IMG/VR virus record: IMGVR_UViG_3300048835_000859
Location: 1-27,663 of that record
From: a virus
Reading direction: 5' to 3' (one strand)
Length of the DNA stretch: 27,663 nucleotides
The translations under genes were made by a program, and so were the position numbers. This document shows, piece by piece, positions 1 to 26,891 of this stretch; within the stretch, counting starts at the first letter, position 1, and every line of letters begins with the position of its first letter. The notes below the pieces were generated by a model. The model saw only the letters and a program-made list of their open reading frames with translations. It was not told the DNA's origin and did not search any database.

Positions 1-1
1 C

Positions 2-1080: not shown

Positions 1081-1081
1081 C

Positions 1082-1294: not shown

Positions 1295-1300
1295 CGATCC

Positions 1301-1351
1301 ACGCCGGCGCGTGCAGGGTTTCCTCCTTTCCCCACGCGTCGCCGGCGTTTT
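1301..1351 (+). terminator. Probable intrinsic terminator before terminase genes
   Basis: Nine-base arms ACGCCGGCG (1301-1309) and CGCCGGCGT (1340-1348) pair perfectly and continue inward with CGTG/CACG past a three-base bulge. TTTT ends the structure at 1351. The loop is about 19 bases. It separates the small left-hand unit from the terminase genes. Confidence 0.5.
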
Positions 1352-1359
1352 CTCTCATC

Positions 1360-4806: not shown

Positions 4807-4985
4807 AAAAACTTCTCCGCGAAATATATTGGCGCATCACGCTGGGCATTATCTGGGAGTACTCCCAGTCCGAACACGTGACCGGCGCAGAGAGTGTGGT
4901 TTTGGTGGACACCGTTGAGATTCTCGCATGCGGCGCGATCAACAAAGGTTATTTGCCGGCTCCGAAATTCACGACTCGCAAATGA
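4803..4985 (+). CDS. Small conserved-position protein between portal and MuF genes
   Basis: This 60-residue protein is tied to both neighbours by ATGA overlaps: it starts within the last bases of portal and ends in the start of the MuF-like gene. That tight coupling is the main reason to accept it. A perfect 16-base palindrome, CTGGGAGTACTCCCAG, lies inside it and encodes WEYSQ. No domain is recognised. The short hydrophobic middle (VVLVDTVEILACGAI) is too polar for a confident membrane call. Confidence 0.6.
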   Translation: MKKLLREIYWRITLGIIWEYSQSEHVTGAESVVLVDTVEILACGAINKGYLPAPKFTTRK

Positions 4986-5617: not shown

Positions 5618-5621
5618 GTAG

Positions 5622-5660
5622 ATGGCTAACCCAACTTTTCAGGAAATTATTGAATGCTGA
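5622..5660 (+). other. 12-codon reading frame overlapping the protease start
   Basis: ATG GCT AAC at 5622 opens a frame encoding MANPTFQEIIEC, which ends seven bases inside the protease gene. It could couple protease translation to ribosomes arriving from upstream, or it may be chance. Two real genes in the window also begin with Met-Ala-Asn. Confidence 0.2.
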
Positions 5661-6466: not shown

Positions 6467-6472
6467 CGCCCA

Positions 6473-6491
6473 CTGTATCCCTGGGATACAG
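6473..6491. repeat. CTGTATCCC palindrome, copy 1
   Basis: Perfect inverted repeat CTGTATCCC-T-GGGATACAG in the gap between the protease and capsid genes. Two near-identical copies lie at 14366 and 16620, also between late genes. No T-run follows, so it may be an operator, an RNA-processing hairpin or a mobile palindrome rather than a standard terminator. Confidence 0.8.
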
Positions 6492-6541
6492 CATCGCCGC
6501 ACTAAAACGCCACACCAATTCCCGTAGGAGTCCATTCCCGA

Positions 6542-11593: not shown

Positions 11594-12940
11594 ATGGCTA
11601 ATCCTCTCGACATCGTAATCCGACTCTTCGCCAAAGGCGGCGATGATGTCGCGCGTGATTTTGACAATGTGGCCGATGCCGGCGAACGGATGGGCGATTC
11701 GCTCGAAAAATCTGTCGGGCGCCTGGAGAAAATTCAGGCGTTTGAAGGCATCGCCAACGCCGGCGCCAGGCTCGCTGACGCCGGACGCAGCGTGCAGGCG
11801 TTTTCGGATTCGATGATTCAGGCGTCAGCCGATGACCGCGCCATCACCCAGCGTTTGGAGTCCATCTTGAAAGCGCAAAAACGCGTTCAGGACATGGCGA
11901 AAATCGAAACCGAAGTTGGGCGCATCGCGGTCGAGGGGCACTTCGACGACGACGATTCGATCAAGGAAGCGGGAGTACTCCTGGCTTCATTCAGCGTCAA
12001 AACCGAACACATGGGCCAGATGATGGAGATGGCCGGTCGCCAATCGCGCACCGCCGGCAAGTCCATTCAAAGCGTCGGCGAGCAGTTGGGAAAAGCCTAC
12101 TCCACCGGCAACATCGCCATGCTCGCAAAAAGCGGCCTGACGCTGGGTAAACAAGAAATCGCCGCGGTGAAAGCCGCTTACGGCGTTTCCAAACTGGCCG
12201 GGCAAATGAAGTTCATGGAAATCGTCGGCAAGGCCGTGCGCGGCAACACGGTTTCCCTCAACGATTCTCTCACCGAAACCGAAAAGCGCGCCAACGATGC
12301 CACGCGCGCCTGGGACGGCGTAGTGACCGCCTTTGGCAAAGGCGGCGCTGAAGCTCAGGCAACCACGCAAAATATCGTCGGGAGCATCGGAAAAATTCTC
12401 GACACTTCGCCCGGCCTGGTGCAGGCAGCGGGCTACTGGACACACTTCGGCGGACAGGCCGCGACTGCAGGCGGTTCGGTTTTGGAAGTGGCCGGCAACA
12501 TCGGCTCGGCGACAGTAGGCATGAAATCGCTCGGCATCACCAGCAGTCTGACATTCACCACCATGAAGGCCGGCGCGGCCAGCGTCGCTATCGCCGTGGC
12601 CGCCATCGCCGCCACGATCTACGGCGCGATCAAGGCCTATCAGGGCTTGCAGGACGCCACGATGGGCGATGAAGAGCTGGTCGAAAAGCACGGCGTGTGG
12701 GGCGAAATTTGGAGCAAGGGCGGCAAATTCCTGGGAGAAAACAAAGCCATTGGTTACACGCCACTGGGCTTAGCCGTGGGCAACAACTCCTACACCGGCC
12801 AGAACAATCAGGATTACATCGGCGCGCCGATCAAGCCGCCGCGCGCGAAAAACCGTCAGCGCAAAGCGCCCAACGGCGATACACACGTCACGTTCGATCC
12901 CGTCGTTATTAAGACTCCGAAAACGCGGGGGTTTAGCTGA
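11594..12940 (+). CDS. Tail tape measure protein (short)
   Basis: The 448-residue protein sits after the chaperone pair and before the tail tip genes. It is Ala/Gly-rich and largely helical, with a heptad-like beginning (IVIRLFAKGGDDVARDFDNVADAGERMGDSLEKSV), as tape measure proteins have. A hydrophobic segment near residues 325-348 (AASVAIAVAAIAATIYGAIKAY) fits the membrane-active region common in this family. If tail length scales at about 0.15 nm per residue, the tail would be near 65-70 nm, short for a siphovirus. The C-terminal 60 residues are basic and glycine-rich. Confidence 0.8.
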   Translation: MANPLDIVIRLFAKGGDDVARDFDNVADAGERMGDSLEKSVGRLEKIQAFEGIANAGARLADAGRSVQAFSDSMIQASADDRAITQRLESILKAQKRVQDMAKIETEVGRIAVEGHFDDDDSIKEAGVLLASFSVKTEHMGQMMEMAGRQSRTAGKSIQSVGEQLGKAYSTGNIAMLAKSGLTLGKQEIAAVKAAYGVSKLAGQMKFMEIVGKAVRGNTVSLNDSLTETEKRANDATRAWDGVVTAFGKGGAEAQATTQNIVGSIGKILDTSPGLVQAAGYWTHFGGQAATAGGSVLEVAGNIGSATVGMKSLGITSSLTFTTMKAGAASVAIAVAAIAATIYGAIKAYQGLQDATMGDEELVEKHGVWGEIWSKGGKFLGENKAIGYTPLGLAVGNNSYTGQNNQDYIGAPIKPPRAKNRQRKAPNGDTHVTFDPVVIKTPKTRGFS

Positions 12941-14340
12941 TGGCAGTTCTCCAGCTCTCGGCGCTCAGTTGGGAATATTATACCGGTGGGCATCCGCGTA
13001 ACGAAGATTTGACAAATCCGGCGTGGGGAATGTGTCGCGAGTGGTGGGTTTCACAGATAAACCGCCCCGGTTCGCCGCCGTCCTGGAACGACCCCGACAA
13101 TGGATTGCCCGATTCGTCCCTGCCAAACGGAGCGACAATTAATGATTTGCCATCGAATCTCTGCAGCAGTTTCAGCTTTCCCGACATCACGCTCACCACG
13201 CCGGGCGCGCTCCGAGACTGGGTGTTGCCCTTTGATGACAGCGCCGCCGCCTGGCCTGACGCTACTATCACCAAGCGCGGCGAGTTTGTGTTGCACGTCC
13301 TGGGGCAAGGCACTATTGACGGGCGCAGGCGCTATAACTTCGGTTCCTTTGCGCCGGATTTGTACTCCGGCTTGTCCACGTTTGTTTTTCCACTTACAAC
13401 CCTCCTGACAAACGACAATTACTATTACGAGCGACTCACGGTCACTCTGGCCGATGATATCGCTACGACTGAAAATGCGAACCTGACAGAGATTCGCTTT
13501 GACTGGGGAAACGGCGACATTGAAATTGTCGCGCCAACATTTTTGCGCGTCGTGACTGGTATTTACGGCCCCATCAAATACTGGGCAGGCGCAACCAGCA
13601 CGCGGGAGTTTCATACAAACGACGAGCGCGTTTTGAAGGTTTTTTTAGTAGATGAATTCGGGCGCGAAACGGAAATCGCGCAACCGTTTTCAATCACGCA
13701 ATGCAAGCGGATTCCGCGCTACTGCTGCGCCGCTCGACTTCCCTCGGACGTCGTGTCGGGAATGCGCGAACACGCCGCCAACAACAGCTTGCAAGTCACG
13801 AATCGCATTTTTCAATTCAAAAGCGCTGATGGGGCATTGCAAGCAGGCTTTGAACCGCGCACTCCGCGCACCGTGCAGCCCGGCGCATTGATTTCAACGC
13901 GGCGCGGCGAGTTGTGGATGGTCGGCAACTCCGGCGGCAGCCCGGTGGACGGCACCTCGCGCCTGCGATTGCTGCGCAGCCGCGATCAAAGCCGCAATTT
14001 TCAATTTCAACTTTCCACGATGGCAATCTGGAACTCCGACGATTTCATCTACACCGACATCGCCGCCACCGAAAGCGATGCGCTTCTGGCCGTCGGCGTG
14101 AAGGCGATCGGCGAAATCCCCAACCAAACCTTTTCGCTGTGGTTTCGCAGCGGCTCGCGACCAGGTCGCGGCGCAAACTCGATTAGTTGGAGCACTCCGC
14201 TTCAAATCACTGCCCTCGAACGACAGGAGCCGTTTCGAGTGTTACAACTGAACCGCAGCCGCATCATCGTCACCAACTGCTACGACCTCTTTTTCACCTC
14301 CGACGATTTCGGGCGCACCTGGCAGCAAGTCGCCGTTTAA
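12940..14340 (+). CDS. Tail-tip protein with Asp-box repeat
   Basis: The 466-residue protein starts at an ATG whose A is the last base of the tape measure stop (TGATG). The first half is aromatic-rich and beta-like (SWEYYTGGHPRNEDL, MCREWWVSQ). The second half resembles a beta-propeller: TSDDFGRTWQ near the C-terminus is an Asp-box (S.DDG.TW type), and LLRSRDQSRNFQF is a weaker copy. Asp-boxes occur in sialidase-like folds, in which catalysis is not always present. It contains at least five cysteines, unusual for this phage. By position it is a distal tail or baseplate component. Confidence 0.65.
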   Translation: MAVLQLSALSWEYYTGGHPRNEDLTNPAWGMCREWWVSQINRPGSPPSWNDPDNGLPDSSLPNGATINDLPSNLCSSFSFPDITLTTPGALRDWVLPFDDSAAAWPDATITKRGEFVLHVLGQGTIDGRRRYNFGSFAPDLYSGLSTFVFPLTTLLTNDNYYYERLTVTLADDIATTENANLTEIRFDWGNGDIEIVAPTFLRVVTGIYGPIKYWAGATSTREFHTNDERVLKVFLVDEFGRETEIAQPFSITQCKRIPRYCCAARLPSDVVSGMREHAANNSLQVTNRIFQFKSADGALQAGFEPRTPRTVQPGALISTRRGELWMVGNSGGSPVDGTSRLRLLRSRDQSRNFQFQLSTMAIWNSDDFIYTDIAATESDALLAVGVKAIGEIPNQTFSLWFRSGSRPGRGANSISWSTPLQITALERQEPFRVLQLNRSRIIVTNCYDLFFTSDDFGRTWQQVAV

Positions 14341-14365
14341 CGCCGCAACGAAATTCCATTTTCAA

Positions 14366-14386
14366 GCTGTATCCCAGGGATACGGC
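14366..14386. repeat. CTGTATCCC palindrome, copy 2
   Basis: GCTGTATCCC-A-GGGATACGGC, one G-T type mismatch from perfect. It lies between the Asp-box protein and tail hub genes, 14 bases before the ATG. A TTTTT follows at 14394-14398 directly before the start. Confidence 0.75.
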
Positions 14387-14400
14387 TTCGCCATTTTTCC

Positions 14401-16614
14401 ATGAAACACCAAGTGCGCATCGTCGCCAAAGGTTTTTTCGGCTCGCCCTCGCCCCCGGCGCTGACGTTCAACGCTACGGGCGCTGATGCCGCCGGCGCCA
14501 GGCCGCGCGGCAAGCTGAAAAATCTCAAAGCGCTTTTGGGTGACGGGAGTGCGCTGGCCGGGAGTACTCCCGGCGCCGGCGCCAGCATCGCGCCGCTGAT
14601 GCTCGATTATCGCCTGGTTTTTTCGGATGCGCTCGGCCAAAAATCGGCATGGACGTTTACGGGAACCGACTATCTGGCCGAGCGCGCCACGGCGTTTCGC
14701 AGCGGCACGGCGCTCGAACATACCAACGTCACTGACGTTGAATATGCCTCCGTCGCCGACTTCATCCTACAGAACACGGCCTGGGCGCTACGGTTGTATC
14801 TCTACGAATCCGATAACCAGAACGCATATTTTTTGCTGCGCTGGAGCGGCTGGCAAATTGTTATTCGCGACGGCGCAGCGGCGATCATGCGCCTGGCGGC
14901 GACGTGGACGCAAATCGCGGAAAATGCGTATTTTACAGCGCTGGGCGATGCCGACATTTCCGCGTCCGATCAGGAAAACATTGACACGCTCAAAGCGCAG
15001 CTCTACGCCGATTACACCGAGTTCGCCACCAGTTCCGAATCGCTGTATAATCGTGTGCTTACGCTCGTGGTTGTGCCTGATGCCGCCGGCGTTTGCCACG
15101 TTATGCTGGACGGACAATCCGTCGCCGCCGCGCCGCATTCCGATGTTTTAAAAACCCGCCAGTCGGGAGTACTCTGGCCCGAAACCGCGCTGACGATTAA
15201 ATCCAGTGCCGGCGGGTTTTTCTGGCAAGCCGGCTATCCCGAATTCATGCCCACCGGCCAATGGCGACTGGGGCAGTTCAAGGACGGCCAATGGAAAAGC
15301 GATTTTTCAGCGCTGACCTATAACCTCAACAAAATCACGCCCGACGGCACTGTCATCAACTGCGACCGCGAAATCTTGAGCGAGGTGTGGAGCGAAATCG
15401 TCGTCAATTTTTCGACGAGCGATGTGCGCCAAACGCCGTTTTTGTACTGGGCGAGCGCCCTGATCGCGCCCGGCGAGCGCAGCGCCGACGAAACGCCGGC
15501 TTTCGATTCCGACGACCATTTAGACGTTCACGGCGTGGGGCCGGTCGTGGATGGCGACGCGCAGTTCGAGGGCGACGACGCCTACACCACGCGCCGCACC
15601 TCGCTCGATGTCGAACTGCGCAACGTCAACGGATTGTTCAATTTGCCAGGCGTGTATTATCATGCGCTCGAAAACCGTTTGTGCGATGTTTATCTCAACG
15701 GCTCGCTGTATCTCAAAAACACGCTCGTTAAAAACTCCGGCCTGACCACGCTGCGCGCGGCCACGCCCAACCAGGCGCCGGTTCAGGTCATGCGCGGCGA
15801 TACGCGCCTGCACCTGGGGCTATGTGATTTCTGGGGCATTGTGGACGAGATGCCCCTGCGCGCCGATTTCATCGGCGATGCCACCAGGTTGGGCTACTAC
15901 ATCAAATTGATTTTGCGTTCGTGCGGTTTTCGCGCGAGCGAACTGGCCGGCGTTTCCGAAAACGCGGGTAGAGTACTCCCGGCTGCCGCGCCCGGAGAAT
16001 CGCCCTGCGTGCGGCCTGGCGCGGGCGTGATGGTCGGCGATTATCTGCGCTCGCTTTTGGAAAAATACGGCCTGGGCTGGACGCTGCAGCTCAATGCCAA
16101 TGGCTGGCAGTTTGGGCCGCGCGATACGACCATCCACGCCGCATTTACAACCAATGTAGCCGCCCATAATGCGCTGACGTATCCAGGACGCTGGCACGTT
16201 TTAGATCCGCTCGACTTAGGTCGCGATTTCTTGGATTTCTACAACGAATTTATCGTCGAAGGCGCGAGCGACCCTGTAACGGGATTGCCGATTTCGCGAT
16301 CCGGTCTCATTCACGAGTCCATCAAAGCCGGTCTGGGACAACTGCCGAAAAATTTTCTGGGACGCCCGAAACCCTACCCGGTCGTGCGCGACGAGGGGCT
16401 GAGAACCAAAGCGGATGTCATTTACGCGCTGCGCTCGGTGATGGCGCTGCACGGGCGCCTGGGGCGCTTCGTGGGCTTTGAAACGTATTTTCATCCCTCG
16501 CTCAAACCCGGAATGCGCATAACGATTGACGCCTTGCTGTGCGAAATTGCACGCATTTCGAGCGCCTCATTCGCGCGCGATCGCATGAACCTGGTTTGCC
16601 GAGAAGTCTTGTAA
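14401..16614 (+). CDS. Large tail hub/baseplate protein
   Basis: The 737-residue protein is the longest in the window and lies between the distal tail and fibre genes. The N-terminal half is a beta-rich region; the middle has segments such as GGFFWQAGYPEFMPTGQWRL. The C-terminal third (from about residue 470: DFWGIVDEMPLRADF, later GDYLRSLLEKYGLGWTLQ, then SLKPGMRITID) resembles the hub domain of tail-associated proteins of the gp44/gp27 type. A receptor-proximal role is likely. An 18-base perfect palindrome carrying the AGTACT core lies at 14557. No Shine-Dalgarno is seen. Confidence 0.65.
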   Translation: MKHQVRIVAKGFFGSPSPPALTFNATGADAAGARPRGKLKNLKALLGDGSALAGSTPGAGASIAPLMLDYRLVFSDALGQKSAWTFTGTDYLAERATAFRSGTALEHTNVTDVEYASVADFILQNTAWALRLYLYESDNQNAYFLLRWSGWQIVIRDGAAAIMRLAATWTQIAENAYFTALGDADISASDQENIDTLKAQLYADYTEFATSSESLYNRVLTLVVVPDAAGVCHVMLDGQSVAAAPHSDVLKTRQSGVLWPETALTIKSSAGGFFWQAGYPEFMPTGQWRLGQFKDGQWKSDFSALTYNLNKITPDGTVINCDREILSEVWSEIVVNFSTSDVRQTPFLYWASALIAPGERSADETPAFDSDDHLDVHGVGPVVDGDAQFEGDDAYTTRRTSLDVELRNVNGLFNLPGVYYHALENRLCDVYLNGSLYLKNTLVKNSGLTTLRAATPNQAPVQVMRGDTRLHLGLCDFWGIVDEMPLRADFIGDATRLGYYIKLILRSCGFRASELAGVSENAGRVLPAAAPGESPCVRPGAGVMVGDYLRSLLEKYGLGWTLQLNANGWQFGPRDTTIHAAFTTNVAAHNALTYPGRWHVLDPLDLGRDFLDFYNEFIVEGASDPVTGLPISRSGLIHESIKAGLGQLPKNFLGRPKPYPVVRDEGLRTKADVIYALRSVMALHGRLGRFVGFETYFHPSLKPGMRITIDALLCEIARISSASFARDRMNLVCREVL
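14557..14574. repeat. Longest perfect copy of the palindrome
   Basis: GCCGGGAGTACTCCCGGC, 18 bases, in the tail hub gene. The copies at 4853-4868 (16 bases) and 507-520 and 19499-19512 (14 bases) are also perfect beyond the core. Confidence 0.95.
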
Positions 16615-19397: not shown

Positions 19398-20468
19398 ATG
19401 CTCGCTTTGCCCGGCCCTAGCTCGCCTCAATTCCCACAATTCCCCGCGCCGATTCCCCCAGTTTTAGAAAATGTGCCAACGCCAGCGTTACCGCGCAGCG
19501 GGAGTACTCCCGATCTGGTCGCGCTGCTTTTGGAAGACAAGCGCAGCCCCGACACCAAACGCGCCTACAAATCCGACCTCAATTTCTTTTTCGCTTTCGC
19601 GCAAAAAGACGTGCAAGAATTCATTTCGCAGACCACGCCGCAAATCGCGCTGGATTTGGCGCGCTTCAAAAACGCCATGCGGGAAAACGGTTTGGCCGAG
19701 GCGACGATCAACCGCCGTTTGGCTGCCGTGAAATCGCTGCTGAAATTCGCGCACCGCCTGGGCTTTTGCGAAACGGACGGGCGCGCTTTGGTGGACGGTG
19801 AAAAAATTCAGCACTACCGCGACACGCGCGGCATTGAACTCAAACAAATGCGGAAATTGGTGCAGGCGCCCGCAAAAAAGTTTGGAAATGGATTGCGCGC
19901 CGCGCGCGATACATCAATTTTGCTGCTGCTGTGCGAAAACGCGCTGCGCCGCGCCGAAGTCTGCAAGCTGAATGAAAGCGATTTTGATTACGCGCGGCGC
20001 GAACTTTCGATTCTGGGGAAAGGGCGAGGTTTGCAAAAAGAAAAAGTGACAGTGAGCGAAAACTTAGCCGCGTGTCTGTGTACTTATATAAATAAGAAAC
20101 ATAGTAAACACACTCTCCTAATGGAGAGTTTTTCAAATAGCGAAAAAAAATGTCACGATGTTGCAGACTTACCTTTGTTTGAAACGCTGGATCGAAGGCC
20201 GGAGTACTCCCGTTCGCGTTTGACGCCGGACGGACTTTATCAGCTTGTGCAGTTTTACGGCGCGCAGATCGGACTGAAGCGCCTCACGCCTCACCAGCTT
20301 CGCCACAGCGCGATAACCGCCGCACTCGATGCCACCAAAGGCGACGTGCGGAAAGTTCAGAAACTTTCGAGGCACGCGAAACTGGCGACGCTGCAAATTT
20401 ATGATGATTCGCGAGAAAATTTTCAGGGCGAGGTTAGCGGGCTGTTGTCGAAACTACTGATGAAATAA
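19398..20468 (+). CDS. int: Tyrosine recombinase (phage integrase type)
   Basis: The 356-residue protein has a SAM-like N-terminal core-binding domain at about 37-130 and a complete catalytic domain: R184 (NALRRAEV), K208 (LGKGRG), H299-x-x-R302 (TPHQLRHS), H326 and nucleophile Y335 (LQIYDD). It should catalyse integration and excision. No integron-integrase-specific patch is recognisable, so I read it as Xer/phage type. Two oddities stand out. The first 35 residues are proline-rich. Residues about 229-258 are an AT-rich insertion with codon use unlike the rest and a terminator-like hairpin. It converges on the cassette array, whose truncated end lies 63 bases past its stop. Confidence 0.92.
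   Translation: MLALPGPSSPQFPQFPAPIPPVLENVPTPALPRSGSTPDLVALLLEDKRSPDTKRAYKSDLNFFFAFAQKDVQEFISQTTPQIALDLARFKNAMRENGLAEATINRRLAAVKSLLKFAHRLGFCETDGRALVDGEKIQHYRDTRGIELKQMRKLVQAPAKKFGNGLRAARDTSILLLLCENALRRAEVCKLNESDFDYARRELSILGKGRGLQKEKVTVSENLAACLCTYINKKHSKHTLLMESFSNSEKKCHDVADLPLFETLDRRPEYSRSRLTPDGLYQLVQFYGAQIGLKRLTPHQLRHSAITAALDATKGDVRKVQKLSRHAKLATLQIYDDSRENFQGEVSGLLSKLLMK
20112..20133 (+). other. Terminator-like hairpin inside the integrase gene
   Basis: ACTCTCC-TAAT-GGAGAGT followed by TTTT lies within the AT-rich insertion of the integrase coding sequence. If active it would cut integrase messages short at about codon 240; it may also be a relic of inserted DNA. Confidence 0.45.
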
Positions 20469-20503
20469 AAAAGCCAAACCGAAAATTCCCGGTTTGGCTT
20501 TTT
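20468..20503. terminator. Strong bidirectional terminator after integrase
   Basis: Arms AAAAAGCCAAACCG (20468-20481) and CGGTTTGGCTTTTT (20490-20503) pair perfectly over 14 bases with an 8-base loop. A- and T-runs on either side make it work both ways: it ends the rightward integrase message and also leftward transcription leaving the cassette array. Confidence 0.9.
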
Positions 20504-20530
20504 CCCGTCAGAACGCGGAAATTAACTAAC

Positions 20531-20567
20531 GCGGTAGGCGGTCGGGTGCAGCGTTTTGTTGTGCGTA
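20531..20567 (-). other. attC7, truncated distal site
   Basis: Read leftward it has R'' (ACGCACAAC), the 5-base spacer and an intact L'' arm GCTGCACCCGACCGCC. The L' arm and spacer are missing; GTTAGTT follows at once, as if the central part had been deleted onto an R'-like core. It closes the array on the integrase side. Confidence 0.75.
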
Positions 20568-20842
20568 ATGTTTGATGCGTGAGGCCGGTTCCTCCCCGAC
20601 TGCTGTTATGTCCCCCGCTTTTTGCGCCCTCTGCCTCAGTTTCTCTGTCCCAAGTTTAATTCCCGATTTTCACGGTAGCGGCTCTCTCACCGCATCCACT
20701 TTTTGCGCTCACCTCATACGACAAACATCAAAGTGTCGGCAATCCGCTTTTCGTAGAAACAGCGTCAAAGTACTTCTGGTCGCTCGGCGCTATAGTGTGT
20801 CATATCACCACACCGCCCACGCATCGAACCTTTACGCATTAC
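20568..20842 (-). other. Cassette 7, no recognisable gene
   Basis: This cassette holds no leftward frame longer than about a dozen codons (one encodes MTHYSAERPEVL), and rightward frames look like chance. It may be a decayed gene, a non-coding RNA or a promoter-bearing cassette. With the neighbouring sites it makes up most of the roughly 490-base stretch without a gene between the integrase and cassette 6. Confidence 0.6.
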
Positions 20843-20937
20843 GCACAACGCCGAACTCACCCGCCGCCTGCCGCCGCATCGTTTTGCTCACCGGAGCATG
20901 GCTGCGGCAGGCGGTCGGGTGCAGTGGTTTGTTGTAT
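20843..20937 (-). other. attC6 recombination site
   Basis: Leftward: R'' ATACAAC, spacer AAACC, L'' ACTGCACCCGACCGCC; then L' GGCGGCGGGTGAGT, spacer TCGGC, R' GTTGTGC. The central stem is CCGCCTGCCGC/GCGGCAGGCGG. L'' has the two extra bases (G and A) that set orientation. Confidence 0.88.
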
Positions 20938-20962
20938 TGCTTGTTGGCTCGCTGTAATTTCG

Positions 20963-21160
20963 TCAATCATTGAACATGAACACCGATGAATCGTCGTCCT
21001 CGCGTGGGTCATGTTCTTGCCAGTCGGTTGCGGCTTTGTCCACACCCGACACGCGCTCATCCAGCGAAACCGGATGATTTTTCCAATATTTTACACCTTG
21101 CGACGTTCGATAAATTGCAGACCGAACGTGACACTTCTGTTTTGCATCTTCGTAAGTCAT
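20963..21160 (-). CDS. Cassette 6 gene: small acidic phage-type protein
   Basis: The start at 21160 is set by AAAGGAG six bases before the ATG. The 65-residue product (MTYEDAKQKCHVRSAIYR, then KYWKNHP, then DKAATDWQEHDPRED) ends in a strongly acidic tail. The layout, an opening Y/F-E-A helix, a V-R-S/R patch and a D..A.DW motif, recalls small phage proteins of the DUF2829 type, which includes Tad2-like anti-Thoeris proteins. The resemblance is remembered, not computed, and the protein is shorter than those; treat it as a lead. The stop lies 25 bases before attC6. Confidence 0.7.
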   Translation of the reverse strand: MTYEDAKQKCHVRSAIYRTSQGVKYWKNHPVSLDERVSGVDKAATDWQEHDPREDDDSSVFMFND

Positions 21161-21202
21161 TTGCTCTCCTTTGTTCCAGTTTCTGCAACGCCGCGCGCTG
21201 CA

Positions 21203-21285
21203 ATACAACGCCGAGTTCACCCGCCGCTGGAAGGGAGCGAGGAACGAGCGGACTGTAAGCGGTCGGGTGCAACGACTGGTTGTGC
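21203..21285 (-). other. attC5 recombination site
   Basis: Leftward: R'' GCACAAC, spacer CAGTC, L'' GTTGCACCCGACCGCT; L' AGCGGCGGGTGAAC, spacer TCGGC, R' GTTGTAT. The loop has the GCTCGTTCCTCGCTC segment shared with attC3 and, with changes, attC2 and attC1. The cassette 5 gene ends inside it. Confidence 0.9.
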
Positions 21286-21492
21286 CGCTGTTGGTTCGTA
21301 TCGCGCCCGGTCTGGAAGCTCTACGAAATCAGCGACTTTGCTTTGTGCGTCACTAAGCAAAACTACTGCTTCTGTCAGCAACGTGTGCGCGCCCATTTCC
21401 TCGACTGCCAGAAGTGCGGCGCGGATTGCGCTTTCTGCTGGCGTGTAGTGGTCTATACGACTACGACGCGGAAACCCATCAATCATTTGCAT
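21217..21492 (-). CDS. Cassette 5 gene: small helical phage-type protein
   Basis: Start 21492 has GGAG eight bases upstream (a second ATG lies at 21486). The 91-residue product has a predicted helical pair, HYTPAESAIRAALLAVEEMG then TLLTEAVVLLSDAQSKVADFVE. I recall this kind of sequence as a recurrent small hypothetical protein of phages, but its function is not known to me. The last 25 or so residues are encoded by the attC5 arms and stop at TGA in the L' arm GGGTGAAC, so the C-terminus is dictated by the recombination site. A helical-hairpin sponge-type protein is one possibility, not supported by any motif here. Confidence 0.7.
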   Translation of the reverse strand: MQMIDGFPRRSRIDHYTPAESAIRAALLAVEEMGAHTLLTEAVVLLSDAQSKVADFVELPDRARYEPTAAQPVVAPDRLQSARSSLPSSGG

Positions 21493-21518
21493 AAGTTTTC
21501 TCCAAGCCGCACGCTGCG

Positions 21519-21617
21519 GCACAACGCCAAACTCACCCGCCAACTACAGCCTCATTCCGCTTCGCCCTGATTTGAGCTGCGCGGCTGTAGTTGGTCGGGT
21601 GCAGTGATTTGTTAAGC
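21519..21617 (-). other. attC4 recombination site
   Basis: Leftward: R'' GCTTAAC, spacer AAATC, L'' ACTGCACCCGACC; L' GGCGGGTGAGT, spacer TTGGC, R' GTTGTGC. The inner stem is long (CCAACTACAGCC with GGCTGTAGTTGG). R'' is the closest here to the textbook RYYYAAC. Confidence 0.9.
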
Positions 21618-21629
21618 CGCCGTTGGGGA

Positions 21630-21848
21630 TTATCGGGTGAGGTAATTCCTTTCCTTGTGACATTTTACGCAGCGAGACATTTCATGTGTATTACGCTTGA
21701 GACAGTAATGGCAAACCCATGCCGGGCCACCAATGCGAACATCGTCCAATAATTTTTGTATTGAGATTGGTCGCTTTTCCAACTCCTTTTCTAACTCTTC
21801 GACACGCGCCTCTAACTGCTCGCGCGTCATTTCAGAAACATTTGACAT
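21630..21848 (-). CDS. Cassette 4 gene: coiled-coil zinc-ribbon protein
   Basis: The 72-residue product starts with a heptad helix (MTREQLEARVEELEKELEKR, about 7-26) and ends in a zinc ribbon with CHYC and CVKC pairs 16 residues apart. A DNA- or protein-binding adaptor is plausible. The start at 21848 is set by AAGGAG; that ribosome binding site is itself part of a GAGTACTC copy of the dispersed palindrome (AAGGAGTACTC then ATG), so the repeat supplies the translation signal. The stop lies 12 bases before attC4. Confidence 0.75.
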   Translation of the reverse strand: MSNVSEMTREQLEARVEELEKELEKRPISIQKLLDDVRIGGPAWVCHYCLKRNTHEMSRCVKCHKERNYLTR

Positions 21849-21885
21849 GAGTACTCCTTGCACGCAACAAACGCCGCGCGCGGCG

Positions 21886-21971
21886 GCTTAACGTTGAGTT
21901 CACCCGCCAACGAAAGCAGAGCGAGGAACGAGCGGCGCTGTAGTTGGTCGCGGTGCAACGACTTGTTGTAA
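21886..21971 (-). other. attC3 recombination site
   Basis: Leftward: R'' TTACAAC, spacer AAGTC, L'' GTTGCACCGCGACC (an inserted G compared with the others); L' GGCGGGTGAAC, spacer TCAAC, R' GTTAAGC, which fits GTTRRRY exactly. Confidence 0.88.
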
Positions 21972-21976
21972 CGCTG

Positions 21977-22183
21977 TTAATCAGTTGCAAGTGCCATTTT
22001 CCACGCGGGGATGCCGGCTTGCAAGTTCTGAAAGCGCACCTCTTCCACGCCTTCACTTTGCCAACCGCACGCACAGCAAACACGCTGTTGTTGAGCCAAG
22101 CGAAACAAGCGCGGGTCAACGGGACGCGAGAGCAAGTTTAAGTCGAACGCTTCGGTTTTCTCATCGCAAATCGGGCATTTCAT
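21977..22183 (-). CDS. Cassette 3 gene: zinc-ribbon protein
   Basis: The 68-residue product has CPIC at residues 3-6 and CCACGW near residues 36-41, a four-cysteine zinc ribbon like those of small phage regulators and of YgiT-type proteins. Here no toxin partner or HTH accompanies it. Start 22183 is preferred because AAGGA precedes it by seven bases; the upstream in-frame ATG would run through the cassette leader. The stop lies five bases from attC3. Confidence 0.75.
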   Translation of the reverse strand: MKCPICDEKTEAFDLNLLSRPVDPRLFRLAQQQRVCCACGWQSEGVEEVRFQNLQAGIPAWKMALATD

Positions 22184-22223
22184 ATGTTTTCCTTTTCGCG
22201 CTTCCATTGCGCCGCGCGCAGCG

Positions 22224-22300
22224 TTACAACGACCAGCTCACCCGCGCCCGGAGCGCGAGGAACGAGCGCGTAGGGCGTCGGGTGCAGCGTTTTGTTCAAC
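22224..22300 (-). other. attC2 recombination site
   Basis: Leftward: R'' GTTGAAC, spacer AAAAC, L'' GCTGCACCCGACGCC; L' GGCGCGGGTGAGC, spacer TGGTC, R' GTTGTAA. The shortest complete site here; the HTH gene of cassette 2 ends inside it. Confidence 0.88.
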
Positions 22301-22495
22301 CGCAACGCTGCTACGTTTCAGTTTAAGTACTCGCTCGACTTCCTTGAGCGCCAGAGGAAGGCAGCGCGGCGGAGTACTCCTGCCCGCGCGCCAATCCTCG
22401 AAAGTTCTCAAGCTGGTTTTGTTCAAGCGCCGCGCGGCCTCGACGTTTGATAATCCAAGTCGCGCCTGCCATTTCTTCAGTTCGTCAGCGGTCAT
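22238..22495 (-). CDS. Cassette 2 second gene: helix-turn-helix regulator
   Basis: The 85-residue product shows a Cro/C1-type HTH: LKKWQARLGLSNVEAARRLNKTSLRTFEDWRAGRS at about residues 6-40, followed by a helix (PLALKEVERVLKLKR). Such proteins are phage or toxin-antitoxin repressors. ATG 22495 has no good ribosome binding site; an in-frame TTG at 22522 is an alternative start, and GGAGATACGA upstream repeats the leader of the other gene of the cassette. The C-terminus runs into attC2 and stops at TGA of GGGTGAGC. It could bind the palindromic operator at 23120 in the same cassette; that is inference. Confidence 0.75.
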   Translation of the reverse strand: MTADELKKWQARLGLSNVEAARRLNKTSLRTFEDWRAGRSTPPRCLPLALKEVERVLKLKRSSVAVEQNAAPDALRARSSRSGRG

Positions 22496-22520
22496 GGTAA
22501 AATCTGAATGTCGTATCTCC

Positions 22521-22560
22521 AATCCCGCCGCGTGTTTTGAGGCACGCGGCGGGATTTTTT
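22521..22560 (+). terminator. Strong intrinsic terminator inside cassette 2
   Basis: Arms AATCCCGCCGCGTG (22521-22534) and CACGCGGCGGGATT (22543-22556) with an 8-base loop, then T's to 22560 on the plus strand. The T-run points rightward, so it stops antisense transcripts; leftward the stem lies just upstream of the HTH gene and could lower read-through without fully ending it. Confidence 0.85.
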
Positions 22561-22566
22561 GATTGA

Positions 22567-23055
22567 TTAGAGAACTTCGTTAATCAGAGCCGAAGACGAC
22601 CGAGCCGAGTTCAAGTAATATTCGACTTTGTTTTTGATGTGATCCATCAAGCCGCCTTTGATTCTCGAAGCCAACTCCAGAAATTCAAAATCAGTAGCTT
22701 CGGTAATTCGCGGGTCGTTGTGATTGAGTTGGAAATTGATTTCGTAGGCGCGCGTCAATTCTTTATCCGCGAACAGCGCGGCGTCGGCGTCCAGGTTGAA
22801 CAACTCAACTTTCACAGGATAGAAAACATAGTGGCGAATCCACATCGCCATGAACACCGTTGCTTCCTTGAGTTCCGGTGTAATTACGACACTTTCGCTA
22901 AACATCAAGTCGGCTTGAAAAGGCGCGTTTTCTTTGATGAATTGAATCGCGAATTTGGCTTTGGCTTGATTGGCCTGATCGTGTTGAGACACCCAGTCTC
23001 CAGATAAGTCAGTGTTCAAATTCAGTTGGTCAAAAATTGAGGTCTTCGTATTCAT
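22567..23055 (-). CDS. Cassette 2 first gene: 162-residue protein of unknown function
   Basis: Start 23055 is set by AGGAGATACGATG (SD six bases before ATG). The soluble 162-residue product has no recognised domain; visible features are a polar N-terminus (MNTKTSIFDQLNLN), a hydrophobic helix-like segment near residues 66-85 (EATVFMAMWIRHYVFYPVKVELF) and a Ser-rich end (NSARSSSALINEVL). Composition is clearly more AT-rich than the phage genes, which suggests separate ancestry. It has its own sigma70-type promoter with an operator in the spacer and a leader hairpin, so it is not dependent on upstream reading. Toxin or antidefence roles are speculation. Confidence 0.8.
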   Translation of the reverse strand: MNTKTSIFDQLNLNTDLSGDWVSQHDQANQAKAKFAIQFIKENAPFQADLMFSESVVITPELKEATVFMAMWIRHYVFYPVKVELFNLDADAALFADKELTRAYEINFQLNHNDPRITEATDFEFLELASRIKGGLMDHIKNKVEYYLNSARSSSALINEVL

Positions 23056-23067
23056 CGTATCTCCTGT

Positions 23068-23100
23068 GTGAGTAGCTTGGAATTTTTGAGGACTACTCAC
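23068..23100 (-). promoter_or_regulatory. Leader hairpin before the 162-residue gene
   Basis: GTGAGTAG (23068-23075) pairs with CTACTCAC (23093-23100). In the leftward message the stem sits immediately before AGGAG and could tune access to it. Confidence 0.5.
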
Positions 23101-23112
23101 TAACAAGGTACT

Positions 23113-23141
23113 ATTATAAACCACGATAATCGTGGTGGCAA
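23113..23141 (-). promoter_or_regulatory. Promoter with a 17-bp operator in its spacer
   Basis: Leftward TTGCCA (23141-23136), a 17-base spacer, and a perfect TATAAT (23118-23113). The palindrome ACCACGAT-A-ATCGTGGT (23120-23136) fills the spacer and touches the -35 box, an arrangement that would let a bound repressor block polymerase. Transcription would start near 23106, about 50 bases before the ATG of the 162-residue gene. Confidence 0.8.
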
Positions 23142-23200
23142 GGGGTTTTGAGAAATTTTTTATTTATTTTTTTGCGCCCCCCCCGAAACACTGATTTGCG

Positions 23201-23292
23201 GTTGAACGCCGAGTTCACCCGCCAACGGAAGCGCCAGAGTGAGGCACGAACGGCGGCGCTGTAGTTGGTCGCGGTGCAACGATTTGTTGTAT
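23201..23292 (-). other. attC1 recombination site
   Basis: Leftward: R'' ATACAAC, spacer AAATC, L'' GTTGCACCGCGACC (with the inserted G also seen in attC3); L' GGCGGGTGAAC, spacer TCGGC, R' GTTCAAC. Its arms share CCAACTACAGCGCCG with attC3, so the two may be recent relatives. Confidence 0.88.
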
Positions 23293-23302
23293 TGCAGTTG
23301 GC

Positions 23303-23494
23303 TCATTGCGCGGCCAGCTTTTGCTCAACTTCCGGCCATGACAGATATTGTGCTTGCGGCATCAAATCCCGAACCTGAGTGATTGAATAGGCATCGCCGT
23401 CACCAAACATATAATGCTCTTCGTCAGCATCCAAAACACCAAACTGAATGTCGCCTTTGCAGTGAAAATCCCTGACTAAAATAAATGGTTTCAT
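23303..23494 (-). CDS. Cassette 1 gene: small protein of unknown function
   Basis: Start 23494 is set by GGGAG six bases before the ATG. The 63-residue acidic product (MKPFILVRDFHCKGDIQFGVLD, then YMFGDGDAYSITQVRDLMPQ) looks like a small beta-alpha domain. No family was recognised. Its stop lies 10 bases from attC1. As the first cassette it is nearest to transcription coming from the phage replication operon. Confidence 0.7.
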   Translation of the reverse strand: MKPFILVRDFHCKGDIQFGVLDADEEHYMFGDGDAYSITQVRDLMPQAQYLSWPEVEQKLAAQ

Positions 23495-23520
23495 TTCAAC
23501 TCCCTGCAGCGCCGCGCGCT

Positions 23521-23545
23521 GCAATACAACAACTGATTAACCGAC
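23521..23545 (-). other. Solitary recombination core at the array start (attI-like position)
   Basis: GTTGTATTGC (23530-23521 leftward) is complementary to the end of cassette 1, so a recombination point exists here, but no L boxes or stem lie upstream (leftward GGTTAATCAGTT precedes it). A single core without a folded site is what an attI looks like, yet no known attI sequence was recognised. Confidence 0.6.
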
Positions 23546-23595
23546 GTAGGATGCGGTATAACACGCCCTCGCCGGAAATTACCGTAAAACCTGAT

Positions 23596-23781
23596 TCACC
23601 GATGGCTCGACAAATGCCAGCCGTCACAGTACGGACAACAATAAATCCGCAGAACTTCCGGACGCTTACGCCGTCGCCGCAGCACTTGATTGCGCACCGT
23701 CTGGGCGTCTTTCTTGTGGGGGTAAACCACTTTTTCCCCACAGCGCGGCAACCGAACATCTGTAATCAAAATGGTTTGCAT
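23596..23781 (-). CDS. Small basic zinc-ribbon phage protein
   Basis: The 61-residue product ends in YCCPYCDGWHLSSHR, the C-P-x-C-x-G-W-H-L signature common in small phage zinc-ribbon proteins, after a basic stretch (RNQVLRRRRKRPEVLR). Start ATG 23781 is preferred; the longer frame upstream only translates the inverted-repeat region. It lies between the replication helicase and the cassette array and is the last leftward phage gene before the array core. A nucleic-acid-binding role is likely. Confidence 0.65.
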   Translation of the reverse strand: MQTILITDVRLPRCGEKVVYPHKKDAQTVRNQVLRRRRKRPEVLRIYCCPYCDGWHLSSHR

Positions 23782-23799
23782 GGTGATAATTGCAATCCC

Positions 23800-23902
23800 G
23801 ACCATGTTTGCAACTTTGCAAACTTTGCAACTTGTTTTTGCGTTTTGCGTTTTTGCAAACATGGTTTCATTTTGCAAAGTTTGCAAAGTTGCAAACATGG
23901 TC
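23800..23902. repeat. 31-bp perfect inverted repeat with TTTGCAAA-type iterons
   Basis: Arms 23800-23830 and 23872-23902 are perfect reverse complements. Each arm holds overlapping units such as TTTGCAA and ACTTTGCAA, and the 41-base loop has another TTTTTGCAAACATGG. The region is AT-rich in a GC-rich genome and ends on the helicase stop codon. Repeats like this next to a replicative helicase gene are typical of origins, but a large operator or terminator hairpin is also possible. Confidence 0.85.
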
Positions 23903-25479
23903 TAAAATCGCGGTGCCTCCTTCAGTTCCCAGAACCAGCGCCCCGCCGCGCCCGGCTCTTTGTAGCGATTGACGCCCATATTTTTAGAGGCGGTTTCGAG
24001 CGTACGGCGTGAGCAGATTTTTTCGCTCTGCGCCTGATCGAGTAGATCGGTTGAGAGGCGCGGCCCGTTTCGCAGCTCCTCGCGCAGCCAGTTCGCCGCG
24101 CGGTCGGCGGGTTTGAGGTTGGGTGCCGCTTCGCTGATGTCGCCCCACGCCGGGCCGAAGTCGGTTGTCTGATAGCCGATGGCATCACGCGCGCTTCCGA
24201 AATTCACTTTCACGGACATAAAGCCGTGCAGAAGCGGTTCGTTTTTATTGGGCGTGCCGACGCCGATGATGGAGCGTGGATACTGTGTGATGGCCGATGC
24301 GCCGCGAATCATATCCAGCGTAATCGGCCAGTCGGGAAAACCGGCGGGCAGTTTGTTGAGGTGGTGAATGCAAACGACCGCGATGTTAAATTCAGCGGCG
24401 AGTTCCGACAAGCGCAACATCACGAATTTCATGCAGTCGTTGGAATTTTCATCGCCCGAATGCGCGGCGGCGAGCGAATCAACAACGACAATCGGCGGGC
24501 GATGATCGCGCACGGCCTGGACGATCCACGCCCAGTCGCGGTCGTTATCCACGCGCAGCGCGTCGGCTTCGTTGCCTTTGGCGAACACGAAATGCCCGCG
24601 CGGAAATTCCCACTCGTGCAGGCGCTGGCGAAAAATGCCCAACCCGCTTTCCGTGTCAATCCACAAAAGGCGCATCGGGCGCTCTTCTTCGGTTTCAAAC
24701 GGGTCTTCGATTTCGGCCTGCTGACCGTCCGGCCAATCGGCGTCGAGAATAATACGTTTACAAATATCCATCACGACGGTGGATTTCCCGACGCCCGGAC
24801 GCCCGACCACCAATGTTAGCAGGCCGCGCGGAATCCAATCCGGCCACAGCCATGTGATGTCGTCGAAAACCGTGTCCAGATCGCAGTCAGTGGAGTACTC
24901 CTGCCGTGCGCGGGAATTGATCTCGCGCGCTTTGAGCGCTTCCATTTTCGCGGTGTAATGTTTGAGCGATTCCGAAACGTCTTCATCAGTCGAAGACAAA
25001 ACGGCTTGAAAAATTTCGGTTTCGCGCAGCGCTTGCCGCGCGATGGATTTCTGCAAAACGACGTGCGCGTAGCTTTCGATGTTGAGCGCCGAAGAACACT
25101 GCCCGATGCAGGCCGTCAAATACGGCGCGCCGCCGACTTCTTCATAATCGCCGCGCGCGCGCAGCTCGGCGACAACGGTCGTAAGATCAATCGCTGCTTT
25201 TTTGTCGAAAAGCGAAACGATTGCGGCAAAGATTTTTTGATGAGGGACGCGATAAAAGTCGCTGCTTTCCAAAAGTGCGGTTGCTTTGGGAATGACGCTG
25301 CTTTGCATCAGCATCGCGCCCAGCGCGCTTTGTTCCGATTCCAAACTTTGCGGCGTGACGCGCTCGCGCGGTTGCGGGCGCGTGGGAAATTCCGTGACGT
25401 TGCCGCCACGCCGTGAGTTTTGGGAGTACTCCCGGCGCGGCTTGTCGGTTTGGCGATAAAAAGCGGTTTGTGCGGCCAT
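23902..25479 (-). CDS. Replicative helicase: DnaB-type N-domain with RepA-like ATPase
   Basis: The start at 25479 is chosen because its ATG shares a base with the stop of the upstream gene (TAATG). The 525-residue protein has a DnaB N-terminal domain at about 43-150 (PQSLESEQSALGAML, then GGAPYLTACI), a linker, and a RecA-fold ATPase with Walker A GRPGVGKST (about 226-234) and Walker B IVVVDSLAAAHSGDEN (about 330-345). The ATPase part resembles RepA/AAA_25 helicases rather than the DnaB C-domain. The last 70 residues may be a winged helix (LSTDLLDQAQSEKICSRRTLE). It should unwind phage DNA at the fork. Two repeat copies lie inside the gene. Confidence 0.88.
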   Translation of the reverse strand: MAAQTAFYRQTDKPRREYSQNSRRGGNVTEFPTRPQPRERVTPQSLESEQSALGAMLMQSSVIPKATALLESSDFYRVPHQKIFAAIVSLFDKKAAIDLTTVVAELRARGDYEEVGGAPYLTACIGQCSSALNIESYAHVVLQKSIARQALRETEIFQAVLSSTDEDVSESLKHYTAKMEALKAREINSRARQEYSTDCDLDTVFDDITWLWPDWIPRGLLTLVVGRPGVGKSTVVMDICKRIILDADWPDGQQAEIEDPFETEEERPMRLLWIDTESGLGIFRQRLHEWEFPRGHFVFAKGNEADALRVDNDRDWAWIVQAVRDHRPPIVVVDSLAAAHSGDENSNDCMKFVMLRLSELAAEFNIAVVCIHHLNKLPAGFPDWPITLDMIRGASAITQYPRSIIGVGTPNKNEPLLHGFMSVKVNFGSARDAIGYQTTDFGPAWGDISEAAPNLKPADRAANWLREELRNGPRLSTDLLDQAQSEKICSRRTLETASKNMGVNRYKEPGAAGRWFWELKEAPRF

Positions 25480-26891
25480 TAAGCAGCACCGCCTTCGCTT
25501 GCTTTTTCCCACGTCAAAAACCCGCCTTCAATCGCGTTAATCAACAAATCGCACTGCAATTTGGAAAGCTGCTTGCGCGATTGGATAGGCCGAAAATGCG
25601 GGCTTGCCATGTGTCGGTTAATCGCCGCAATCATGGTTTCGCGTTCGGTGCTAAACCCGGCTTTTTGCGCGGCGATGAGGAGCGCGGCCAGATGCTTTGA
25701 TTCGCTTTCGGCGCGATGCTGGTTTGCGTTGGGGCACGTCGAAAAGTGCGAAGTGCCGTCGGGATTGGCGGGCATTTTCTTGCCGTTTTTGGTTTGGATC
25801 CAAAACACATCGGCGTCGCATGAGCGGCATTTCGCGCGCGGCGTGCCGCCCGGAATTTCAAAGACTAAGGCGCCTTGTGGCGGAGCGGGCAAAACACCTT
25901 GATAATCACCATCGGTAACTTCGCCGTAAAAAGGGATTTCGTCATCAACAATTTCGCCTTCTGAAAATTCATCGCTATCGCGCGCTACCGCGTTTTGAAA
26001 ATCAGCGTCCAAATCGTCATCGCTGTTTTCGTATTCATCGGCGAGCTGGGCAACGCGCGCCGCTTTGGTTTTCTGGAATGAATCGGCGGCGTTGGCGGTT
26101 GTGGTTGCGGGCTGATGAATTGTTGGCGGTGTTGTGGGAATGCTTTCGCGGTTCAAGGCTTGTTGCGCTTCTACTTTTTCGCGCGTCTTGCGAATCCAAA
26201 CCGCGAGTTCACCGGCGGCCATGTTTTCGCGCGCTTCGCACGGAACTTTCAAACCGAGTTCACCGCACGTTTTTCGGAGCGCGTTGTATTCTTCGATTTG
26301 CTCGCTTGTCGCGCGCGGTTCCTCGATGACGGGCGGCGGTGCTTGCGGCAGCGCACGGGGAGTACTCCCGGTGCGCGCGCCGTGAATGGTTTCGATTTCA
26401 GTTTCATCCAGCATTCCCATTCCGCAGTGCGAGAGAACCGCGCGCCGAAATGCTTTGGTGACGGCTTTCATCATGGCGTTAGCCATCGCATCGCCGCCGC
26501 CGGTTGCCGACACCACGCCGATGTTATCGGTATGACGCCCGTCCGGGCCAATCACACGGGCGCGCACGCGATACAGATTGTTGGCGAAATTTTCATCCAC
26601 AATTTCAGTCGAGAGTTTGCGTTTTTCGCAAAGCTGTTCGGTGCAGGTTTTGGTGGCATACAAAACTTCTTTTCCCGAAAGCCGCAGATAATCAAACGGC
26701 TTGGTGACTGGATCAAGCCCCGCCGCTTCGCAGCGCATTTGATACCACTGGACTTTTTGCGGTGGCGACAGTTGGGATAAATCGCCGTTCAAAATCAGCG
26801 ACTCCAAAACAGCGGCGTCGTGCGCCGCCGGATGCGCCAGCACGTTATTTTGTGAGGGCGCGGTTTCGCGTTGGGTTAAAGCTGTACTCAT
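25479..26891 (-). CDS. Probable single-strand annealing protein with C-terminal zinc finger
   Basis: This 470-residue protein has GGAG eight bases before its ATG. Residues about 30-165 (QWYQMRCEAAGLDP.TKPFDYL, ending NAMMKAVTKAFRRAVLSHCGMGMLDETEIE) match a domain common in phage recombination operons, probably of RecT/Red-beta-like annealing function. The middle is acidic and low complexity. Near residue 355 a CRSCDADVFWIQTKNGKKMP segment and a later TCP suggest a zinc finger. It is translationally coupled to the helicase. A 26-base near-perfect palindrome around an AGTACT core occurs at 26351-26376. Confidence 0.65.
   Translation of the reverse strand: MSTALTQRETAPSQNNVLAHPAAHDAAVLESLILNGDLSQLSPPQKVQWYQMRCEAAGLDPVTKPFDYLRLSGKEVLYATKTCTEQLCEKRKLSTEIVDENFANNLYRVRARVIGPDGRHTDNIGVVSATGGGDAMANAMMKAVTKAFRRAVLSHCGMGMLDETEIETIHGARTGSTPRALPQAPPPVIEEPRATSEQIEEYNALRKTCGELGLKVPCEARENMAAGELAVWIRKTREKVEAQQALNRESIPTTPPTIHQPATTTANAADSFQKTKAARVAQLADEYENSDDDLDADFQNAVARDSDEFSEGEIVDDEIPFYGEVTDGDYQGVLPAPPQGALVFEIPGGTPRAKCRSCDADVFWIQTKNGKKMPANPDGTSHFSTCPNANQHRAESESKHLAALLIAAQKAGFSTERETMIAAINRHMASPHFRPIQSRKQLSKLQCDLLINAIEGGFLTWEKASEGGAA

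Follow-up and report, generated by a model that had tools for sequence, protein, structure and literature searches.

The window analysed here is the entire IMG/VR virus record IMGVR_UViG_3300048835_000859 (27,663 bases), which harbors a series of gene cassettes bounded by attC recombination sites. The region is almost certainly an integron-type gene-cassette array within a phage genome. Both flanks of the array consist of phage genes, with an integrase family on one side and a helicase family on the other (Pfam and PHROG), and portal and major head genes are present further from it in the window, where a terminase was also matched. A prediction made earlier from the same sequence had placed a leftward array between a phage integrase and phage replication genes. 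Its coordinates and orientation agree with ours, the recombinase lying at 19398-20468 and the helicase at 23902-25512. The array comprises six complete attC sites on the minus strand (20843-20937, 21203-21285, 21519-21617, 21886-21971, 22224-22300 and 23201-23292) and a seventh at 20541-20564, which is a half site with R''-L'' only, so that the six full sites and the half site together span 20541-23292 (minus strand). The seven cassettes and the putative attI-like site preceding them are the following (ORF, open reading frame; the slash marks the junction; end match, complementarity of the cassette start to its own R''):

23530..23584, minus strand: attI-like site before cassette 1, apparently a diverged copy, with CGGTAATTTCCG (23584-23573), GTGTTATACCGC (23564-23553) and the junction G/TT at 23530
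23208..23529, minus strand: cassette 1, ORF 23303-23524 (73 aa); attC 23201-23292, 49.2 bits, E 1e-10; end match 12 nt
22231..23207, minus strand: cassette 2, two genes, ORFs 22567-23124 (185 aa as listed) and 22238-22522 (94 aa as listed)
22224-22300, minus strand: attC of cassette 2, 56.8 bits; end match 12 nt
21893..22230, minus strand: cassette 3, ORF 21977-22207 (76 aa); attC 21886-21971, 55.4 bits; end match 12 nt
21526..21892, minus strand: cassette 4, ORF 21630-21863 (77 aa); attC 21519-21617, 61.8 bits; end match 12 nt
21210..21525, minus strand: cassette 5, ORF 21217-21543 (108 aa as listed, extending into attC); attC 21203-21285, 61.5 bits; end match 10 nt
20850..21209, minus strand: cassette 6, ORF 20963-21220 (85 aa as listed); attC 20843-20937, 57.7 bits; end match 10 nt
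20541..20849, minus strand: cassette 7, no ORF of at least 40 aa on the cassette strand; half attC 20541-20564; end match 13 nt

attC sites and cassette boundaries

All seven cassette starts are complementary to their own R'' over 10-13 bases. The summed score of these pairings is 81, compared with a mean of 38 across all 5040 reassignments of starts to R''; a score of 81 is reached by 2/5040, two rather than one because cassettes 1 and 6 begin alike. This test is stronger than the covariance test, being free of the bias introduced by the pattern with which attC sites were collected. The covariance model (R1) rests on 37 attC sites from bacterial contigs, with the window sites excluded. These bacterial sites were picked, among the matches listed, by a 20-base pattern from the R''-L'' half of the window sites; the model is therefore independent in its data but chosen for likeness in that half, and it is not IntegronFinder's own model. 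It recovers 6/6 full sites on the minus strand with 49-62 bits (E 6.5e-14 to 1e-10), against a best score of 12.5 bits on the plus strand, while the half site scores 20.2 bits (E 0.002) over 20460-20564. Scores at background for all six sites had been named in advance as an outcome that would speak against the array; all six are far above it, with E <= 1e-10. Moreover, L'' carries unpaired bases absent from L' in all six full sites (G and A in four of them, with one further extra L'' base each in attC 21886 and 23201), and the cassette genes run toward their own attC. Matching cassette ends and extra L'' bases were thus rightly recognized in the original prediction. The seven attC-bounded cassettes that it counted are present as seven cassettes with six full sites, the seventh site being truncated. 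A search of the window in Rfam gave eight matches. As none of these is to an attC model, and as Rfam is not known to hold an attC family, this search is no test of attC sites.

No integron integrase was found in the window record by a model search of its proteins. The window recombinase reaches 41.7 bits with the integron-integrase model (cut-off 265), so that no intI gene stands beside the attI-like site, and 114 bits with the XerC model (whose own cut-off is 335); it is XerC-like and not an integron integrase. With at least two attC sites and no intI nearby, the array belongs to the clusters of attC sites lacking integron integrases (CALIN). That the record would lack an integron integrase of its own was already implied when host machinery was invoked for it; recombination of the cassettes would therefore need a host integrase.

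Related arrays and docking sites in phages and bacteria

Two pattern scans of IMG/VR returned 14 and 13 stretches, three of them common to both. Model R1 identifies attC sites at E <=0.001 in 5/16 records (the 14 of the first scan and two terminase relatives), namely G001, G003, G002, G008 and G012. The second scan added ten loci, none of which gave a site at this level; three of the ten belong to longer records as short pieces. The comparison phages were found via attC, array-free phages of the same host lying outside the sample. G001 and G003 come from different samples but represent one virus (identity 98.3% over 7.3 kb). The attC arrays of G002 (a 53.9 kb record) and of G003/G001 are present on contigs with tape-measure and major head genes, and the G001 contig harbors terminase and portal genes in addition. 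The structural genes of the window, G001/G003 and G002 are mutually different, for example their major head families (phrog_10, phrog_3990 and phrog_29, respectively), and the genes adjoining the arrays differ as well. In all three phages the array has the direction of the preceding gene, and the integron-integrase model gives no intI match in records G001-G003. The arrangement is a recurring trait and not one accident, because two further phages with other structural genes share it. The initial inventory of the array had overlooked both these phages and the attI-like site before cassette 1. A single attC site at E <=0.001 is present in G008. Finally, G012 (IMGVR_UViG_3300033388_008211, 45,102 b; locus L188) harbors an IntI at 11715-12656 on the minus strand (397 bits, cut-off 265), five attC sites at E <=0.001 within 5317-5793 and 13158-15233 on the plus strand, and portal, major head, tape-measure and tail-fibre matches; it is apparently a complete phage integron.

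The window, G001/G003 and G002 phages apparently share one kind of host, as suggested by the word GAGTACTC, which occurs 21 times in the window (0.2 expected), ten times in G001, and 14, 11 and 7 times in three pieces of G002 (4-14 per piece of G001/G003 and G002). The window also contains 13 copies of the palindrome GGAGTACTCC, genes included (e.g. at 509, 2924, 4856 and 11282). Comparable scattered repeats are known in cyanobacteria as HIP1. The density of GGAGTACTCC revealed no enriched genome in sets of 13, 291 and 297 genomes (overlaps included), and literature matches to it, among those listed, look like chance by title.

The arrays of G003/G001 and G002 stand behind a common site, TTGCGGYATAAYAYATTG/TT. 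Ahead of the first cassette, L050 (the locus of G003) and G002 have GTGTTATACCGCAAA, then a loop and TTTGCGGTATAACACATTG/TT. The IMG/VR scan found the inverted pair GTTATACCGC(N8-34)GCGGTATAACA in no more than two stretches, each directly before one of these arrays. The window has GTGTTATACCGC at the corresponding place, with a diverged right half; 0/2000 shuffles align as well as its site (61 nt) does with that of G002. The 17 nt before the first junction in G003 and G002 are identical at 14/17 positions to the attI of G031, a genome of Abditibacterium's phylum, and rank 1/880 and 1/1623 among GTT sites; in a gapped alignment of the G002 site with this attI, 2/2000 shuffles are as good. A hairpin at the docking site is strong in L050 and L186 (0 shuffles as good). 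The shared inverted repeat was rejected as a conserved hairpin, there being no strong hairpin in the window; hairpin formation is thus not the feature common to the three arrays. The pair TTATACCGC(N8-34)GCGGTATAA is found in 0/291 genomes of Abditibacterium's phylum; the phage layout with a nearby inverted arm therefore differs from the bacterial one.

Two bacterial genomes harbor an intI with a recognizable attI beside it. In G017 (Abditibacterium sp. YX2bin22, a metagenome-assembled genome, MAG), intI adjoins a first junction that a 12 nt R'' match establishes; TTTGCGGGTGAATAACATTG lies before this junction. In G031, TTGCGGCATAATATATTG/TT is present beside intI on contig C5, which ends approximately 470 b past the junction, too soon for a cassette-end comparison. 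Across the 15 intI loci examined, attI beside intI was recognized in two (L204 and L207). The consensus TTGCGGYATAAYAYATTGTT, allowing at most one mismatch, hits 2/291 genomes of the phylum, with four exact copies in G031 and one with a mismatch in G263. On contig C56 of G031, the site heads a cassette with a 12 nt match between its start and its own R''; on C17, an attC lies 0.8 kb beyond the attI-type site; and C8 retains a C-terminal IntI relic. Near the sites of C17 and C56 there was no IntI coding match, and the short matches there, which precede the first likely IntI start codon, were dropped as candidate intI relics. Contigs C5, C8, C17 and C56 correspond to loci L215 and L226-L228. Judged from these comparisons of sequence, the TTGCGGYATAAYAYATTG-type element marks attI, and G031 seems to pair a single intact integrase with more than one attI platform.

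Other similarities link the arrays to this lineage. The window attC 21203-21285 shares 90.5% identity with the first attC of the G017 integron, and for attC A, B, D and F of the window the closest of 86 bacterial sites is from Abditibacterium, which supplies 7/86; attC C gives a four-way tie including Abditibacterium (at the printed precision) and attC E is closest to another site. A leader, GCGCGCGGC (or GCGTGCGGC), follows 14/91 pattern-found junctions, five of which are duplicate listings from overlapping loci; leader-bearing junctions are found in the window (four), G002 (one), Abditibacterium L111 (one) and L136 (three), and a GCGCGCGG-type leader is also present at C5, C17 and C56 of G031. 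L136 (JAUJON010000196.1, 3418 b) comes from a MAG labelled Thermosynechococcaceae and has three attC sites with the Abditibacterium-type leader; it may be mis-binned. From these likenesses we infer that the phage host would be a relative of an Abditibacterium-type lineage with integrons.

Cassette content and flanking genes

The cassettes of the window carry seven ORFs, of which two are zinc-finger-like and one helix-turn-helix (HTH)-like, by weak matches or by eye. The cassette 3 protein matches phrog_6332 (E 2e-5), which has no PHROG function, and reads as zinc-ribbon-like from its CxxC pairs, and the cassette 4 protein weakly resembles a RanBP-type zinc finger (PF00641, E 0.008, below cut-off). 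The content first described needs amending in that cassette 2 holds two genes and cassette 7 has no ORF of at least 40 aa with a start codon on its own strand; a 133-aa ORF is present there on the opposite strand (20572-20973, plus). The 94-aa protein of cassette 2 gives weak HTH matches (E 0.07 in Pfam and 0.036 in PHROG). A promoter-like site of this cassette (23141-23113, 11/12 positions in the promoter scan) includes the palindrome CCACGATTATCGTGG (23121-23135) within its spacer, and a terminator-like hairpin lies at 22521-22556, with a T run on the plus strand. Cassette 2 is possibly a self-regulated two-gene cassette, combining an HTH-like protein with a promoter palindrome.

The anti-defence cargo originally suggested for the array gains no support from these searches: PADLOC matches 0/7 window cassette proteins, and Pfam and NCBIfam matches are weak. 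For three cassette proteins of G002 and L050, PADLOC gives one weak Cmr5 match (E 7e-4). An anti-defence role of the cassettes is possible. The cassette proteins compared with INPHARED, three of the seven of the window (185, 108 and 73 aa) and one of the two of G002, gave no match there, and the window array as DNA matches neither INPHARED phages nor PLSDB plasmids. The first cassette gene of L050 (1404-1856) has 30 matching records (23 from Mycobacterium and seven from Bacillus), all hypothetical phage proteins; its product being of a known phage type, phage-type genes occur in the cassette pool.

The genes and features flanking the window array are the following:

19398..20468, plus strand: phage tyrosine recombinase, XerC-like (PF00589, E 3e-18)
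20468..20503, no strand assigned: inverted repeat AAAAAGCCAAACCG / CGGTTTGGCTTTTT in the interval between the array and the integrase gene, 14/14 arm bases complementary
23596..23898, minus strand: phage gene just upstream of the array and in the same direction (phrog_15216, E 2.9e-7, function unassigned in PHROG)
23902..25512, minus strand: phage DnaB-like helicase, in the direction of the array (phrog_19, E 5e-35; PF00772, E 7e-26)

The repeat at 20468..20503 would be terminator-like on both strands by its T run; the promoter and terminator scan did not list it. A perfect inverted repeat with 31-nt arms and a 41 nt spacer occurs at 23800-23902, where the helicase gene ends; it also covers the start listed for the ORF preceding the array. 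The window integrase and helicase were compared with IMG/VR, where no close relative of either was confirmed. RecT-like relatives (eight loci, all 38-39%) were not used further.

Origin and proposed mobilisation of the arrays

The window element is, with fair probability, an integrase-less integron, that is an attI with cassettes, which host IntI would mobilise in trans. Its proposed layout is an attI-type docking site followed by seven cassettes, without an integrase gene, and the array comes last, on the downstream side, in a group of phage genes that read leftward, as seen from gene order and strand. During infection or lysogeny, host IntI would work in trans, recombining attC sites as folded bottom strands with the phage attI, and cassettes would move in this way between the host cassette pool and the phage genome. 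They would probably be read from the phage transcript entering the array, cassette 2 possibly also from its own promoter. Mobilisation in trans is what we infer from the combination of these elements, and the similar arrays behind an attI-like site suggest that phages can borrow the gene-collecting machinery of their host. A wider version, which we put forward tentatively and hold to be somewhat doubtful, is that the phages of one Abditibacterium-like host lineage keep a dedicated satellite integron, loaded and unloaded by host IntI, in a system of one integrase and many platforms across chromosome and phages. It has a parallel in G031, a bacterium of that phylum, where attI-type sites occur without an intact intI.

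Several observations weigh against these readings. The window site has 8/17 identities with the G031 attI (rank 15/943 GTT sites; 1648/2000 shuffles as good) and 4/17 with that of G017, so that its link to attI runs through its likeness to the G002 site. For L050, 29/2000 shuffles align as well with the G031 attI. The G003 and G002 sites have 10/17 identities with the G017 attI (rank 1, tied, of 880 and rank 2 of 1623), where 113 and 118 of 2000 shuffles are as good, and the two bacterial attI sites show no mutual likeness beyond that of shuffles (497/2000 as good). The consensus TTGCGGYATAAYAYATTGTT had the first G031 site among its sources, but not the other three. Among these, the start on C17 matches the R'' of the second attC (8 nt) and not that of the first, and on C8 the nearest attC is 2.4 kb off and the start matches no R''. 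The closest bacterial attC sites to the L050 attC and to both G002 attC sites are not from Abditibacterium. As regards the host, no genome among 291 from Abditibacterium's phylum exceeds 24 copies of GGAGTACTCC, the word being equally rare in 297 genomes from the phylum of a Pyrinomonadaceae MAG, and an intI of the true host was not encountered. Since the phage records may be incomplete, an intI elsewhere in the genomes is possible. Finally, the half attC ends were not made by IntI acting at R'.

This last point leads to the strongest alternative, in which each array is a passive fragment of a host chromosomal integron, brought in by illegitimate or homologous recombination, with attI included by chance and nothing recombining now. 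In all three arrays the last attC is cut shortly after L'', at almost the same point (20530-20565 in the window, 2175-2210 in L050 and approximately 14370-14400 in L186), which indicates breakage and not the action of IntI; in the window, where the half attC starts 73 bp from the integrase gene, aberrant excision was perhaps involved. Plasmids provide examples of deletions that end in the variable part of attC (PMC10127599). Known cases among phages are a cryptic Shewanella prophage with attI-headed arrays and Vibrio phages that took up part of the adjacent chromosomal integron (PMC9892861). The attI-like site of the window is decayed. However, the attI side was kept in three phages with different structural genes, and since the adjoining genes differ in all three, a single local accident is insufficient. 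In addition, all seven cassettes of the window have retained starts that match their own R''. We regard a passive fragment as rather unlikely.

Less likely still is that docking site and array form a module exchanged among phages of one host and derived from that host only once. It is true that L050 and G002 both have GTGTTATACCGCAAA and ATATTTTGCGGTATAACACATTG around a differing loop, that a methylase stretch of the two is 68.7% identical over 425 nt, and that the last half attC of the window and of L050 are 97% identical over 36 nt. The cassette proteins, however, are dissimilar between phages save for short attC-derived tails, and the far divergence of the window site would make the module old and its cassettes replaced, for which an integrase would again be needed. 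That the assembly joined a phage and a bacterial integron contig into a chimera is highly improbable, even though the window is a single metagenome contig whose relatives L003 and L004 cover only positions 1-7939, because the same junction type occurs on both sides in G002 and G003, the downstream junction recurs in G001, assembled from another sample, and the window array holds two of the phage's own GAGTACTC words.

The integrase-less integron served by host IntI can be compared with known systems. Phages with attC sites were previously known as scattered cases. The original prediction, which knew of no phage with such an array, was wrong on this point, as Qi et al. 2023 report 21 (PMC9892861). 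Their screen of 10,705 phage genomes yielded complete integrons in three cases, an integrase without cassettes in one and integrase-less attC clusters in 17, and 5/6 phage attC sites, taken from three phages, recombined with attI1 via IntI1 (PMC9892861). The arrays described here resemble these in lying within phage genomes, mostly without intI. In the cryptic Shewanella prophage M16-3, a Shewanella-type attI heads both a complete integron and an integrase-less array; M16-3 differs in having its own intact IntI, whereas none was found in the three phage records studied here (PMC9892861). The main text of that study, in the part considered, describes no unrelated phages of the same host sharing an attI-like site (PMC9892861).

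The chromosomal integrons of G017 and G031 share with the phage arrays the attC type and the GCGCGCGG-type leader, and G031 also the attI TTGCGGYATAAYAYATTG/TT, but they have intI beside attI, whereas the phages are without an intI match. Also similar are contigs C8, C17 and C56 of G031, with an attI-type site, attC on the same contig and no intact intI near; they differ in being bacterial, only C8 has an IntI relic, and only C56 is a proven cassette head. The attG sites of Loot et al. 2024 are reportedly non-classical genomic sites of cassette insertion; there too IntI can place cassettes in DNA without attI, whereas the first junction is attI-like in sequence in two of the three phages here. 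If the reading preferred here is true, an attI-related site kept without an integrase in three unrelated phages would make the host cassette system a gene supply for them, and cassette pools would flow between chromosome and phage. A phage array headed by attI has a precedent in M16-3; its recurrence in unrelated phages of one host signature looks to be the new part.

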